This document shows, piece by piece, positions 20,865 to 25,556 of a stretch of DNA of 39,504 nt; position 1 is the stretch's first letter; each line of letters opens with the position of its first letter. The notes under the pieces are model-generated. The model did no database searches and was not told the DNA's origin. It was given only the letters and a program-made list of their open reading frames with translations. The translations under genes and the position numbers were made by a program. Origin of the DNA: Thiomargarita sp. (GTDB lineage Bacteria > Pseudomonadota > Gammaproteobacteria > Beggiatoales > Beggiatoaceae); NCBI GenBank assembly GCA_022729575.1, contig DZAL01000037.1, positions 1 to 39,504 of the forward strand, given 5' to 3'.

Positions 20865-22829
20865 ATGAACATTTTTACTCATTTAAAAATCAGTACCAAA
20901 ATTTTAGTCGGCTTCTTAATTATCTTAACTCTGATGATTGCCACTGGCGGGATAGCCCTCGTGAAGATTTCCCAAATTCACGCCACTGTCATCGACTTTG
21001 CCGACAATTTCGCCAGTGACCAGCATCTGGCCAACCAATTGGTTAGCCAAATTTTACAAGTTCGCCTCCAGGCGAATAGATATATTTGGCATCAATCTGC
21101 CACCGATGTGAACCACTTCAAGGAAGAGGTAGCTAACCTGGATAAACTCTTAGCGAGAGCTAATCAAGAATTTCCTGACCAAGAACAAAGTGTCGTCACT
21201 CAACTTAACAGCGGCGTGCAAGCCTACGTTAATCACTTTGATGAAATAATGAAACTGTTCGATAATCGTCATAAAGCTATAACGGAGGTTCTTAATGTAC
21301 AGGGACCTCTGGCCGAAGATAAATGGCAGCAACTTCAAGAAAAATTTTTCCAAGCTAATGATGCGAGTACCTTATTCTATGTGAGCAAATTTCAGCGTTC
21401 GCTCCTCTTAATGCGCCTAGATGTCTTCAAGTATTTGGAAGCAAGAGATTCTCAGTGGGCACAAAAATTAGAGCAACGTTACCAGGAAGCACAAGTCGTC
21501 TTTAAACAACTGGACGAAACGCTTAAAGATGCTACACTGCATCAACTGGCCAACGATGCAGAAACGGCTATGAATTTGTACTATCAAAGTTTCGTGGCAC
21601 TGCGAGCCGATTATGACCAACAACTCCAACTGATTGAAAAGCTATTTTACACGATTGGTCCCCAACTGCAAGAAACCAGTTTAGGTATATCGTCCAGAGT
21701 CAGTGCGGAGTTTACTAAAGGTAGTCAGACCACCCATCTCCTAGTTACCGACACCTGGATGCAACTATTAGTGACTATGAGTTTAGCTATCTGCATCGGC
21801 TTGGTTCTCGGTGTCACCTTGTCACGGAGTATCACCGCTCCCCTGGCAACGGTGATGGCCATGACTGATCAGATGATGACGGGCAATTTAAGTCAAATCG
21901 TGGCGGTTAAGAATCGTAGTGATACTAATAACATGACAATGCGCCGTGACGAGCTGGGGAATCTGTGGCGAACTTTTGACGCGGTCGCTGGTTATTTTCA
22001 GACCGTGATTGCAGATATTGTCCGAGTGTCTCAAGGGTTAGCGGTGGGAAACCTGCGGGTCACCCCCACCGCCGAATATCGAGGCGATTTTATCCAAATT
22101 AGACAAGCCTTAGAAACTGCCTTATCGGACCTCCAGCAAGTGATAGAGGATATTGTGCAAGTGTCGCAGGGACTTGCCGAAGGCCAGCAAATTATGCCTA
22201 AAGCCGAATATCGAGGCGACTTCGTACAAATTAAAACGGGCTTGGAAACCGCCGCGACTAAACTGGCCGCCGCGACTACTAGAAACGCTACTCAAGATTG
22301 GTTGAAAACCGGCCAAACCTTGTTAAATGAACAATTGAGAGGTGAGCAGGAGGTGGCGATGTTGGCGAAAAATGTGATTAATTTTCTCACGCCTTATGTA
22401 GAAGCACAAATCGGGGTTTTCTACCTGTTGGAAGAAGCCAACCAGGGAACTTCTGAAGCGGCCCGCTTGAAACTGGTAGCCAGTTATGCGTATACTCAAC
22501 GGAAAGGTTTGCCTACCGAATTTCCCATTGGGGAAGGACTGATAGGACAAGCGGCGCTCGAGCAGCAATTTATTCTGGTGACTGAGGTGCCAGAGGATTA
22601 TATTCATATTGAATCCGGTTTAGGAGAAGCGGTGCCCCAAAATATTTTGGTGATGCCATTTTTGTATGAAAATGTGGTAAAGGGCGTGATTGAGCTGGGT
22701 TCCTTCCAAGTGATGAACGAGATAAAACTAGAATTTCTCAAACAGGTCATGCCCAGTATTGGAATCGTAGTGAATACGGCTGAATCACGAACGAAGATGC
22801 AGGCGCTTTTGCAAAAGATTCGTGGGTAA
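20865..22829 (+). CDS. orphan transmembrane HAMP-GAF sensor without output domain (second)
   Basis: This 654-residue paralogue of the protein at 12761 starts MNIFTHLKISTKILVGFL against MNTFNNFKVSTKMFIGFL, which supports ATG 20865 (AGGA at 20853) over the in-frame ATG at 20835. TM1 lies at about 11-33, a helical sensor follows, TM2 is at about 298-322, and HAMP comes next. There are only two 45-residue HAMP-like repeats (377-467); the second is one residue short (GQQIMPKAEYRG). GAF covers about 494-642 and the end is NTAESRTKMQALLQKIRG. It has no kinase or other output. It probably forms an operon with the nucleotidyltransferase-like gene upstream. The sensor sequence differs from the first copy more than the GAF domain does, suggesting different ligands with a common partner. 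Confidence 0.85.
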   Translation: MNIFTHLKISTKILVGFLIILTLMIATGGIALVKISQIHATVIDFADNFASDQHLANQLVSQILQVRLQANRYIWHQSATDVNHFKEEVANLDKLLARANQEFPDQEQSVVTQLNSGVQAYVNHFDEIMKLFDNRHKAITEVLNVQGPLAEDKWQQLQEKFFQANDASTLFYVSKFQRSLLLMRLDVFKYLEARDSQWAQKLEQRYQEAQVVFKQLDETLKDATLHQLANDAETAMNLYYQSFVALRADYDQQLQLIEKLFYTIGPQLQETSLGISSRVSAEFTKGSQTTHLLVTDTWMQLLVTMSLAICIGLVLGVTLSRSITAPLATVMAMTDQMMTGNLSQIVAVKNRSDTNNMTMRRDELGNLWRTFDAVAGYFQTVIADIVRVSQGLAVGNLRVTPTAEYRGDFIQIRQALETALSDLQQVIEDIVQVSQGLAEGQQIMPKAEYRGDFVQIKTGLETAATKLAAATTRNATQDWLKTGQTLLNEQLRGEQEVAMLAKNVINFLTPYVEAQIGVFYLLEEANQGTSEAARLKLVASYAYTQRKGLPTEFPIGEGLIGQAALEQQFILVTEVPEDYIHIESGLGEAVPQNILVMPFLYENVVKGVIELGSFQVMNEIKLEFLKQVMPSIGIVVNTAESRTKMQALLQKIRG

Positions 22830-22836
22830 TTTTCTC

Positions 22837-22965
22837 GTTCCCACGCGCCGGCGTCCCTTTCCCGCAACGCTGGCGCGTTGCCCACGGCATTCCCACGCTG
22901 GCGCGTGGGAACGAGATAAAGCTTGCCCACGGCATTCCCATGCTGGCGCGTGGGAACGAGATAAC
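22837..22965. repeat. cluster of GGCGCGTGGGAACGAG dispersed repeats
   Basis: The motif CTGGCGCGTGGGAACGAGAT appears twice (about 22892 and 22944), and its inverse CTCGTTCCCACGCGCCGGCG starts at 22833. Related copies lie at 30009-30032 and 33843-33866. Short frames reading through this cluster are not genes. Confidence 0.8.
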
Positions 22966-23003
22966 GCTTGGTTTAAAACTTCGCTTGGTACTCATGGAGT
23001 GGT

Positions 23004-23312
23004 CTAAGGTGAGACCACACTTAAAAACGGTTGAATTTGCCTAATCTGCTTCGCTTTACTAGAATGACGCACCTCCCATAAATCAACGGCCAATTGCAAA
23101 TTTAGCCACATCTCGGGGCTAGTTTGCGTAAACTGACCTAGTCGTAGCGCCATATCCAAAGTAATTCCTCGTTTGTGATTGACCAGTTGACTGATGGCAT
23201 GACGTGAAACCCCCAAGGTTTTTGCTAGTTGGGTTTGGGTCATACCGAGTTCTTGTAAAATATCGGCTTTGATAAATTCACCGGGATGGGTGGGGCGATA
23301 TTTGGGAGTCAT
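23004..23312 (-). CDS. higA: HigA-type antitoxin
   Basis: This 102-residue protein has MTPKYRPTHPGEFIKADILQ, then a helix-turn-helix LGMTQTQLAKTLGVSRHAIS with QLVNHKRGITLDMALRL, followed by the WLNLQ segment typical of HigA (VapI-type XRE antitoxins). HigA binds and neutralises HigB and represses the operon. It lies 21 bases after higB, in the toxin-first order characteristic of hig loci. The C-terminal tail after RHSSKAKQ is a little longer than usual. Confidence 0.92.
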   Translation of the reverse strand: MTPKYRPTHPGEFIKADILQELGMTQTQLAKTLGVSRHAISQLVNHKRGITLDMALRLGQFTQTSPEMWLNLQLAVDLWEVRHSSKAKQIRQIQPFLSVVSP

Positions 23313-23333
23313 AGTAAAGGTTTTCCATTTGGT

Positions 23334-23615
23334 TTAGTGGTAATCCTCAAAATAAACATCGTGTATGTTATTATTAATCCATAGAAAACTAATTCGCCAC
23401 TGTTTATTTACCCAAATAGCATAACGTTTGGGATTAAATCCGTCAAGTACATGAAATTGCTTGGAAGGCGGAAAATACAAATCTTCAATTTTTTTGGCAG
23501 CTCCCAACAATTCAAGACGACGGCGGATCTTTTTGGCTAAGTTTGAATCAATACGCGGTACCGATTCGCCATTAAACAGCATTTGGGTGCGCCGGTCTCG
23601 GAAACCAACAATCAT
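23334..23615 (-). CDS. higB: HigB-type mRNA interferase toxin
   Basis: This 93-residue RelE-fold protein has MIVGFRDRRTQMLFNGE, then LAKKIRRRLELLGAAKKIED with LYFPPSKQFHVLDG, NPKRYAIWVNKQWRISFLW, and a C-terminal VYFEDYH. These are the standard motifs of HigB (plasmid maintenance killer family), including the basic and final His residues used in ribosome-dependent mRNA cleavage. It is intact and is followed by an intact antitoxin, so this is a functional-looking module. Confidence 0.92.
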   Translation of the reverse strand: MIVGFRDRRTQMLFNGESVPRIDSNLAKKIRRRLELLGAAKKIEDLYFPPSKQFHVLDGFNPKRYAIWVNKQWRISFLWINNNIHDVYFEDYH

Positions 23616-23741: not shown

Positions 23742-24302
23742 ATGGCACTTCACGCCGTAATTCCTGTCTTGAGTGAACAAGACTATTTAGACCTAGAAGC
23801 ACATAGCCAAGTGCGCCACGAATATGTGGAGGGCCACATTTTCGCAATGTCTGGTACAACGAAAGCACACAATCAAATTGCTGGGAATTTATATATGCTG
23901 ATTCGTTCTCACATACGCGGGACGCGCTGTCGGGCGTATATAGCCGAAGTCAAAACCCGGATCCCGCGCAAACAGATTTATTACTATCCTGATATTATGG
24001 TGGGTTGTGACCCCACCGACCATCAATCGGAATATTATCTGGAACGTCCTTGTCTATTGGTTGAAGTTTTGTCCGAGAGTACCAAACATATTGATAAACG
24101 GGAAAAACTGTTAGCTTATCAGACCTTGGGCCGTGTCCAAGAATATGTCATTGTCAGTCAAATCGAGCCGTTAGTGGAGGTTCACCGCCGCGATGAACAA
24201 GGACAATGGTATGTGGATACTTATAATACCATGGAGGAGAAGATTTACTTCCGTTGTATTGACCTGCCAGTGACGATGCAAGATATTTATGAGGATGTTT
24301 AA
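23742..24302 (+). CDS. Uma2 family (DUF820) PD-(D/E)XK nuclease
   Basis: This 186-residue protein has LSEQDYLDLEAHSQVRHEYV with EGHIFAMSG, TKAHNQIAGNLYMLI, YYYPDIMVGCDP, CLLVEVLSESTKHIDKREKL and YVIVSQ. PD...EVLSxxT...K is the restriction-endonuclease-like catalytic layout of Uma2 proteins, a large family abundant in cyanobacteria and sulfur bacteria with a poorly known role. TAGAGGA lies before the ATG. It is transcribed divergently from higBA with 126 bases between, which must hold both promoters (AT-rich GATATATTTTTAGAA near 23648). Confidence 0.9.
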   Translation: MALHAVIPVLSEQDYLDLEAHSQVRHEYVEGHIFAMSGTTKAHNQIAGNLYMLIRSHIRGTRCRAYIAEVKTRIPRKQIYYYPDIMVGCDPTDHQSEYYLERPCLLVEVLSESTKHIDKREKLLAYQTLGRVQEYVIVSQIEPLVEVHRRDEQGQWYVDTYNTMEEKIYFRCIDLPVTMQDIYEDV

Positions 24303-24505
24303 AGCAGACAGCCCGCAAACTCCGTAAACTCCGCAAACCAGGAGTACAAAGCGAAGCTTTGTTCCTAGCCACTATTCTCTCTGGAGCGCAATAAGGATTA
24401 TTGCGAATGGTGCATGGGACCCCCCCCCCGACCCCTCGGGACGAACTCCTGGCTTGAATGTTATCTATCTAACAAGCATTAACTCGAATTTTAAGGAGTA
24501 CCACT
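24303..24505. other. spacer with a 10-C tract
   Basis: It contains ACTCCGTAAACTCCGCAAAC repeats and a run of ten C bases at 24420-24429. The gene start at 24506 follows TAAGGAG. The long C-run is a likely slippage or assembly weak point. Confidence 0.5.
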
Positions 24506-25039
24506 ATGAATGAAAATTTGTTAGTTGCCAGCATTTTTTGGTCGGCGATAGTCGCATCAGCGATAGAAGGATACTTTAGACCCATTCATCACTTTCTCGC
24601 CCGTCTGTCCTCTACTTTGAGACAACGTCAGCGACACTTTGAGGCTACCAATCGACAATATATCGTTGACTTGGTCCGAGATAAGAGTTTTTTCCTCATG
24701 GAAACGGTGCGGGCGTTTGCTAAGGCTATTTTATATGCACTGTTGCTAATTTTTCTCTGGCTGTTGTCCAGACCACCAGGAGGATGGATAATAGAACTGA
24801 TAACCGTCGCCGGCTGGGGATTCGCCTTGTGGGCTGGGTATCAAGTCAGTATCCATTTAAGCCTAGTCAATCAAGCTCGTGAATACTACCGAGAAGACCT
24901 GGAAATTGCAACCGAACTGGGTCCCGATTTTGATGAAACGGCTTATCTGTTAAAGTCTCCTGCCAATGTGGCAGCGTTAGAACGCTCTCTGCAACAATAT
25001 GAAACAGGACAACATATTAGTCTGGATTTAGAGCCATGA
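24506..25039 (+). CDS. membrane protein of unknown family, coupled to a YoeB-type toxin
   Basis: This 177-residue protein has a hydrophobic start (about 5-20, LLVASIFWSAIVASAI) and two further membrane segments (about 68-90, AFAKAILYALLLIFLWLLS, and 95-115, IIELITVAGWGFALWAGYQV). A basic helical stretch (RQRQRHFEATNRQYIVDL) lies between the first two, and an acidic tail follows (YYREDLEIATELGPDFDETA). AAGGAG lies eight bases before the ATG. I do not recognise the family. Its stop overlaps the next gene's start as ATGA, an arrangement normally seen between antitoxin and toxin, so it may influence the toxin, but it shows no similarity to YefM or any DNA-binding antitoxin. Confidence 0.75.
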   Translation: MNENLLVASIFWSAIVASAIEGYFRPIHHFLARLSSTLRQRQRHFEATNRQYIVDLVRDKSFFLMETVRAFAKAILYALLLIFLWLLSRPPGGWIIELITVAGWGFALWAGYQVSIHLSLVNQAREYYREDLEIATELGPDFDETAYLLKSPANVAALERSLQQYETGQHISLDLEP

Positions 25040-25293
25040 GAAAGTTAAAATGGGAGCCTGAGGCAGTTACAGATTTAAAATACTGGAAGATAACGGATCT
25101 CAAAAAATACCGCAAGATTATGACATTATGCGAGGATGCTTGTAGGGAACCGACAACAGGTTTAGGCAAACCAGAACTCTTGAAGTATAAATGCCCAGGT
25201 TGTTGGTCACGGCGCATTGATAAAGAACATCGTCTAATTTACAAATTTGATGATGACACGGTGTATATTATTCAAGCCCGCTATCATTACTAA
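25036..25293 (+). CDS. YoeB/Txe-type mRNA interferase toxin without YefM
   Basis: This 85-residue protein has the YoeB hallmarks: KLKWEPEAVTDLKYW, LCEDACREPTTGLGKPELLK, SRRIDKEHRLIYKF and a C-terminal ARYHY, with the catalytic Glu (PELLK), Arg (HRLIY) and His (YHY) in place. YoeB cleaves mRNA at the ribosome and is normally held by a YefM antitoxin encoded just upstream. Here the upstream overlapping gene (24506-25039) is a membrane protein instead. The frame is complete and of normal length, so it is not obviously dead. A YefM could be encoded elsewhere in the genome. Confidence 0.88.
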   Translation: MRKLKWEPEAVTDLKYWKITDLKKYRKIMTLCEDACREPTTGLGKPELLKYKCPGCWSRRIDKEHRLIYKFDDDTVYIIQARYHY

Positions 25294-25324: not shown

Positions 25325-25459
25325 ACTAACTCACCTTACGCACCACCACCCCCAACCCCTCCTTGGTAGTATCCTGGCGGTGCCGGTAGTGCGTACCCCC
25401 CTCCTTACCAAGGAGGGGTTGGGGGTGGTGGTGTTAACCGTGCGTAAGGTGAGATACTA
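25325..25459. mobile_element. CTCACCTTACGCAC-family palindromic element (P4)
   Basis: The left end TACTAACTCACCTTACGCAC and right end GTGCGTAAGGTGAGATACTA are inverted. Inside, CCACCACCCCCAACCCCTCC is mirrored by the GGAGGGGTTGGGGGTGGTGG arm, giving a long hairpin. Confidence 0.85.
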
Positions 25460-25484
25460 AGGTGTTTTTATCCGAAACTCTACC

Positions 25485-25556
25485 AAAGCATTCGAAACAG
25501 GACTAACTAAAGCATTCGAAACAGGACTAACTAAAGCATTCGAAACAGAACTAACT
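25485..25556 (+). repeat. three 24-bp direct repeats abutting the kinase start
   Basis: Units at 25485-25508, 25509-25532 and 25533-25556 read AAAGCATTCGAAACAGGACT plus AACT, with one base changed in the third. TTCGAA in each is a palindrome. The last unit ends one base before the kinase ATG at 25558, so no ribosome site fits between. They could be tandem operators or a translation-control segment. Confidence 0.9.

Follow-up and report, generated by a model that had tools for sequence, protein, structure and literature searches.

The gene pair at positions 24506-25293 of the window (the whole stretch of 39,504 nucleotides that was analysed, which is contig 311 in the draft genome, 6.57 Mb in size, of Thiomargarita sp., a filamentous sulfur bacterium) is likely a type II toxin-antitoxin (TA) module of the yefM-yoeB kind, in which a membrane-tethered YefM-type antitoxin would hold the YoeB toxin at the inner membrane. 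This reading draws on the homology of the antitoxin tail to YefM, on the hydrophobic segments that precede it, on the conservation of the pair and on the selection acting on the membrane domain. Judged from these sequences, the upstream gene product is very likely the cognate partner of the adjacent YoeB.

The overlapping gene pair and its YefM tail

The antitoxin open reading frame (ORF) is preceded by AAGGAG and encodes 177 amino acids, while that of the toxin encodes 85, the two sharing the four nucleotides ATGA. The features of the locus are the following:

24493..24498, + strand: AAGGAG, Shine-Dalgarno sequence of the antitoxin gene (read in the sequence)
24506..25039, + strand: candidate membrane-anchored YefM-type antitoxin gene, 177 amino acids (ORF; NCBIfam NF008499, E 4.9e-4; tail HMM, E 9.6e-11)
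24518..24574, + strand: predicted transmembrane (TM) helix 1, residues 5-23 (mean hydropathy 1.63)
24713..24769, + strand: predicted TM helix 2, residues 70-88 (mean hydropathy 2.18)
24779..24835, + strand: predicted TM helix 3, weaker, residues 92-110 (mean hydropathy 1.32)
24923..25027, + strand: YefM toxin-binding tail, residues 140-174, core ETAYLLKSPAN (phmmer alignment to the YefM of 2a6q; NCBIfam; tail HMM over residues 144-170)
25036..25039, + strand: ATGA stop/start overlap, antitoxin first (sequence; also readable in the broken GMC7 copy described below)
25036..25293, + strand: yoeB gene, putative mRNA-interferase toxin, 85 amino acids, full length (PF06769, TIGR02116, gapless alignment to E. 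coli YoeB)

The toxin covers positions 1-80 of the 80 in PF06769 (E 1.9e-30; 105.2 bits for a cut-off of 27) and also matches TIGR02116 (E 2.4e-28; 98.1 bits, cut-off 51.8). E. coli YoeB (PDB 2a6q) aligns to it without gaps, its residues E46, K49, R59, R65, H83 and Y84 being all conserved as E47, K50, R60, R66, H84 and Y85. In E. coli numbering, E46, R65, H83 and Y84 are among the residues that we take to be catalytic. By family criteria the protein is thus assigned to YoeB/Txe, with mRNA cleavage at the ribosomal A site and growth arrest as its putative activities. The initial annotation of a full-length YoeB with its catalytic residues, overlapped by the upstream gene at 25036 through ATGA, was borne out on both points. 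The adjacency of the genes, their ATGA coupling and the recurrence of the pair, as broken copies, in three other genomes are the features by which a type II TA module is recognised.

The same annotation had seen in the upstream protein an acidic tail and no YefM features, and here it has to be corrected, since the acidic tail corresponds to the toxin-binding segment of YefM. Antitoxin residues 142-174 align to positions 48-80 of the 83 in the NCBIfam YefM model NF008499 (E 4.9e-4), with a score far under the whole-protein cut-off of 121 bits because the tail alone is present. Among PDB sequences, the antitoxin is best matched by YefM as found in complex with YoeB in 2a6q, again over the tail (phmmer; E 0.12 on its own), with 14 of 35 residues identical between antitoxin 140-174 and E. 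coli YefM 49-83 and the motif ETAYLL.SPAN in common. For an independent test, 51 canonical YefM proteins from other Pseudomonadota families were cut at their ET..L motif, and separate HMMs were made from the N-terminal and the tail halves. Searched against a set of 95 YoeB partners, the tail HMM matches residues 144-170 of the window antitoxin (E 9.6e-11) and the N-terminal, Phd-domain HMM does not match it; a Pfam scan of the protein did not return PF02604 (Phd/YefM) either. The toxin-binding half is therefore present and the DNA-binding half absent. Failing the Phd profile and matching that of the tail, the antitoxin falls outside the Phd/YefM domain family as defined, yet would act like YefM.

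A soluble tail started internally was considered and rejected: no ATG, GTG or TTG codon occurs between residues 109 and 154, so that a complete untethered tail is not expected from internal initiation.

The surroundings of the pair hold other elements. Directly upstream, at 23004-23615 (- strand) and 23742-24302 (+ strand), are found a HigB-like toxin (PF05015, E 4e-18) with an HTH antitoxin (PF01381, E 1e-9) and a putative restriction endonuclease of the Uma2 type (E 4.3e-35). Between this HigBA pair and a chemoreceptor-like ORF, positions 22822-23007 hold a short ORF in which the peptide CPRHSHAGAWERD occurs more than once and which is possibly a dispersed DNA repeat. Just 3' of yoeB, at 25326-25448, lies an inverted repeat of 43 nt, with 84% complementarity and a spacer of 37 nt, that is reminiscent of a small mobile element or a REP-like one, followed at 25482-25556 by three direct copies of a 27-nt repeat with 24-nt spacing (AAAGCATTCGAAACAGGACTAACT unit), right before the start codon of an ORF for a hybrid histidine kinase of 1475 amino acids.

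The membrane domain and its relatives

The N-terminal part of the antitoxin carries two or three predicted TM helices, one strong (70-88), one moderate (5-23) and one weaker (92-110), the first and third of the sequence lying close to or under the usual hydropathy cut-off. Of the three-TM protein originally annotated, the hydrophobic segments thus stand and the number becomes two or three. Hydropathy by itself is weak, as 6% of composition-preserving shuffles match the maximum of the antitoxin, and the case for a membrane domain consequently rests on conservation, the hydrophobic domain recurring in the relatives of the protein. The loop of residues 23-69 contains nine K/R and four D/E residues, an excess of positive charge that by the positive-inside rule would make the loop cytoplasmic; if there are three helices, the C-terminal tail would lie on the same side, which is also where YoeB is synthesised. 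The domain gave no noteworthy match in Pfam, NCBIfam, PHROGs or PADLOC, and the AlphaFold2 model of the antitoxin, computed from an eight-row alignment, was poor (pLDDT 55, pTM 0.25), leaving the packing of the TM helices and the docking of the tail without structural support.

When 43 genomes of the order were searched with profiles, five further copies came to light (G036:C264, G017:C157, G017:C307, G062:C647 and G062:C307), from a Thiotrichaceae metagenome-assembled genome (GMC7), Ca. Thiomargarita nelsonii and Ca. Parabeggiatoa sp. nov. 1. All five are broken, the window copy alone being intact. In GMC7, three short palindromic insertions split both genes, the ATGA overlap remaining readable. 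In one Thiomargarita copy an insertion interrupts the antitoxin and most of the toxin is deleted; in the other the antitoxin is internally deleted and the toxin truncated. In Parabeggiatoa, tail and toxin are gone from one copy; of the other, a disrupted antitoxin is left and no toxin. Nowhere among the five is a broken TM antitoxin accompanied by an intact YoeB. That the insertions hit one and the same TA operon of GMC7 three times (L013 / L221) suggests an active MITE-like element.

What recurs in the three other genomes is the membrane domain, together with the tail or YoeB remnants where these remain. Pairwise dN/dS values of the membrane domain are 0.16 (0.12 for the two-helix core), 0.24 and 0.19, with 0.09 for the N-terminal segment, and on the strength of these values the domain is considered to have been under purifying selection before the copies broke. 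It was, moreover, kept in two diverged subgroups that are about 40% identical. A membrane-tethered function is nevertheless not obviously favoured in the long term, given that only the window copy is intact and its five relatives are broken.

The toxin remnants point to co-inheritance with the membrane antitoxins. Of all fetched YoeB loci, none comes closer to the window toxin over the N-terminal part than the remnants found beside TM antitoxins, and the same holds over the C-terminal part for the one remnant available there. Over toxin residues 1-32, identity to the window toxin is 62.5% for GMC7 and, over 24 residues, 75% for Thiomargarita C307, the next best loci reaching 57-61%; over residues 40-85, GMC7 comes first by bit score with 70% identity, others being near it (up to 69%). 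A query made of the linker plus the tail ranks the same TM-antitoxin copies first.

These results bear on the capture of the toxin gene behind an unrelated gene, one of two alternatives put forward in the initial annotation. In its full form this rival takes the upstream gene to encode an unrelated membrane protein and the true antitoxin of yoeB to be a YefM encoded elsewhere. The search for a distant yefM proposed there yielded 29 matches to Phd/YefM in this genome, which also holds at least 11 YoeB loci, so that another YefM could neutralize the window toxin; such cross-neutralization is putative, and none is needed to account for the pair. Against capture count the YefM tail in the upstream gene and the recurrence of the pair as a unit in other genera, with matching relatedness of the toxins, and we regard it as highly improbable. 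The annotation had also advised looking for the same pair elsewhere and had named uniqueness to this one locus as the outcome contrary to its proposal, and the five broken copies in three other genomes show the opposite.

The membrane domain was also sought more widely. Scanning a general collection of genome contigs with the window antitoxin gave no match, a second scan with a Parabeggiatoa copy returned the already known relatives only, and phage, plasmid and viral-contig searches returned none. With the membrane-antitoxin profile, class-wide and phylum-wide searches retrieved the membrane domain only from the window's own genome, their sole other match being restricted to the tail, in one genome, next to a canonical YefM. 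The alignment of the membrane antitoxins is too divergent for pattern scans.

Partners of YoeB in the family and beyond

The 43 genomes of the order hold more than 150 YoeB-family matches among those listed, with 95 distinct upstream partners. Phd domain and tail occur together in 42 of these partners, the Phd domain only in 3, and the tail without Phd in 36, an upper-side count that includes a few truncated ORFs (e.g., L085 and L088). The remaining 14 have neither domain or are broken or misassigned, some of them also resembling swapped antitoxins with weakly matching tails. The replacement N-termini are diverse and match, at best weakly, MazE, RHH-type or other families. Loci such as L003, L005, L010, L016, L060, L074, L095, L115 and L121 show varied N-terminal domains on a YefM-like tail, some of the tails weakly matched; falling under the Pfam cut-offs, these antitoxins are easily missed by annotation. 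Among all swapped N-termini found in the family survey, that of the window antitoxin represents the only membrane type.

Outside the family, 90 YoeB loci were recovered from 398 genomes of the phylum, 76 of them with Phd plus tail, 11 more with both once read in the correct frame and three being truncated toxins, whereas tail-only partners numbered none of the 90. This contrast is partly by construction, both HMMs having been derived from the outside set, although inspection of the sequences agrees with it. In 18 YoeB loci on viral contigs, the readable partners look YefM-like and none is membrane-anchored. All survey counts come from automatic ORF pairing in draft genomes, almost all of them from Pseudomonadota; other phyla were covered through plasmid, phage and viral records and one genome-contig scan per query.

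The ease with which N-termini seem to be replaced in this family, many unrelated ones bearing the same tail, fits the idea that the antitoxin function resides in the tail alone and that the membrane domain was fused to it neutrally or is decaying, as just one swap among many and with no membrane-specific role. The broken state of all other TM copies points the same way. However, dN/dS values as low as those given above (0.09-0.24 across three genomes) and the retention of the same domain in both subgroups count against such a fusion, and we consider this explanation unlikely.

In yefM-yoeB and axe-txe a paired TGTACA operator has been described (PMC7730913); no TGTACA was found near 24506. Its absence was considered as a sign of lost autoregulation and then dropped as evidence, because it is likewise missing from most canonical YefM operons of this bacterial family (present in 3 of 41 Phd-type operons).

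Proposed mechanism and comparison with known systems

In the model that we favour, a membrane domain of two or three helices would have taken the place of the N-terminal Phd/YefM DNA-binding domain. The antitoxin would be anchored in the inner membrane, its C-terminal tail facing the cytoplasm as the positive charges of the 23-69 loop suggest, and by analogy with YefM the tail would bind and inactivate YoeB as the overlapping ORF is translated, the toxin thus being stored at the membrane. Once the anchored antitoxin is degraded or otherwise removed, YoeB would be able to cut mRNA at ribosomes, as expected from the biology of this toxin. Neutralization, membrane localization and the trigger of release are the parts of the model that we infer. 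DNA-binding autorepression by the antitoxin was probably lost, or would be provided by another regulator. With respect to the proposal, made in the initial annotation, of a membrane protein acting as a novel type of antitoxin or sequestering the toxin, a cognate membrane-anchored antitoxin is thus very likely, and the neutralizing part is an ordinary YefM tail and not of a novel kind.

A tentative extension of the model is that the module answers to the state of the membrane in place of DNA-binding autoregulation: YoeB, kept at the inner membrane by its anchored antitoxin, would be let go once damage or infection is signalled by the membrane itself or by a membrane protease. A stronger form of the favoured model, compatible with it and rather doubtful at present, views the membrane protein as a sensor of stress or phage in an abortive-infection device, with membrane damage or cleavage by a membrane protease freeing YoeB. 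The module does adjoin the HigBA-type pair and the Uma2-type nuclease gene, and ToxM membrane toxins were proposed to sense the passage of DNA through the membrane (PMC11980606, a speculation of its author). However, neither protein has a PADLOC match, no sensor domain was recognised, and the phage and viral searches gave no relatives.

Type II antitoxins are expected to be soluble and usually carry a DNA-binding domain. A membrane anchor in place of this half would uncouple neutralization from autoregulation and provide a natural case in which to ask whether a YoeB module can do without DNA-binding autoregulation. In addition, the YefM tail of this family of sulfur bacteria is joined to many different N-terminal domains, so that automatic annotation misses many YoeB antitoxins. 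A genome survey of 2009 discarded pairs with membrane proteins, no type II system with a membrane component being then known (PMC2701414). The RelE/ParE superfamily was surveyed in 2025, and ToxM, a toxin with a TM domain of its own, was presented there as possibly the first type II complex to be associated with the membrane (PMC11980606). A full-text search of open-access papers retrieved no description of membrane-bound or membrane-anchored antitoxins. What is probably new here is a YoeB antitoxin that kept the toxin-binding tail and exchanged its DNA-binding half for a membrane anchor, and that probably holds the toxin at the membrane.

The module resembles yefM-yoeB of E. coli and axe-txe of Enterococcus in its YoeB-family toxin with all catalytic residues, in the antitoxin gene coming first with an ATGA overlap, and in a C-terminal antitoxin tail (ETAYLL.SPAN) related by homology to the segment with which YefM binds YoeB. 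It differs from them in the membrane domain that stands in for the Phd/YefM DNA-binding domain and in the absence of an upstream TGTACA operator, which is rare in the canonical copies of the family too. With ToxM-ToxR (Gerdes 2025, PMC11980606) it shares a toxin of the RelE/YoeB (BECR) superfamily in a module at the inner membrane, a location that is predicted in the present case. There, however, the toxin bears the TM domain and the antitoxin is soluble and DNA-binding, whereas here the antitoxin would be anchored and the toxin is a plain soluble YoeB of 85 amino acids, with a single YoeB domain and no TM domain. The closest parallel within the family is offered by the other swapped antitoxins (e.g., L003, L010, L016, L060 and L115), in which a YefM-like tail on a non-Phd N-terminus is likewise followed by yoeB, but whose N-termini lack TM segments, some being weakly MazE-, RHH- or DUF2281-like.
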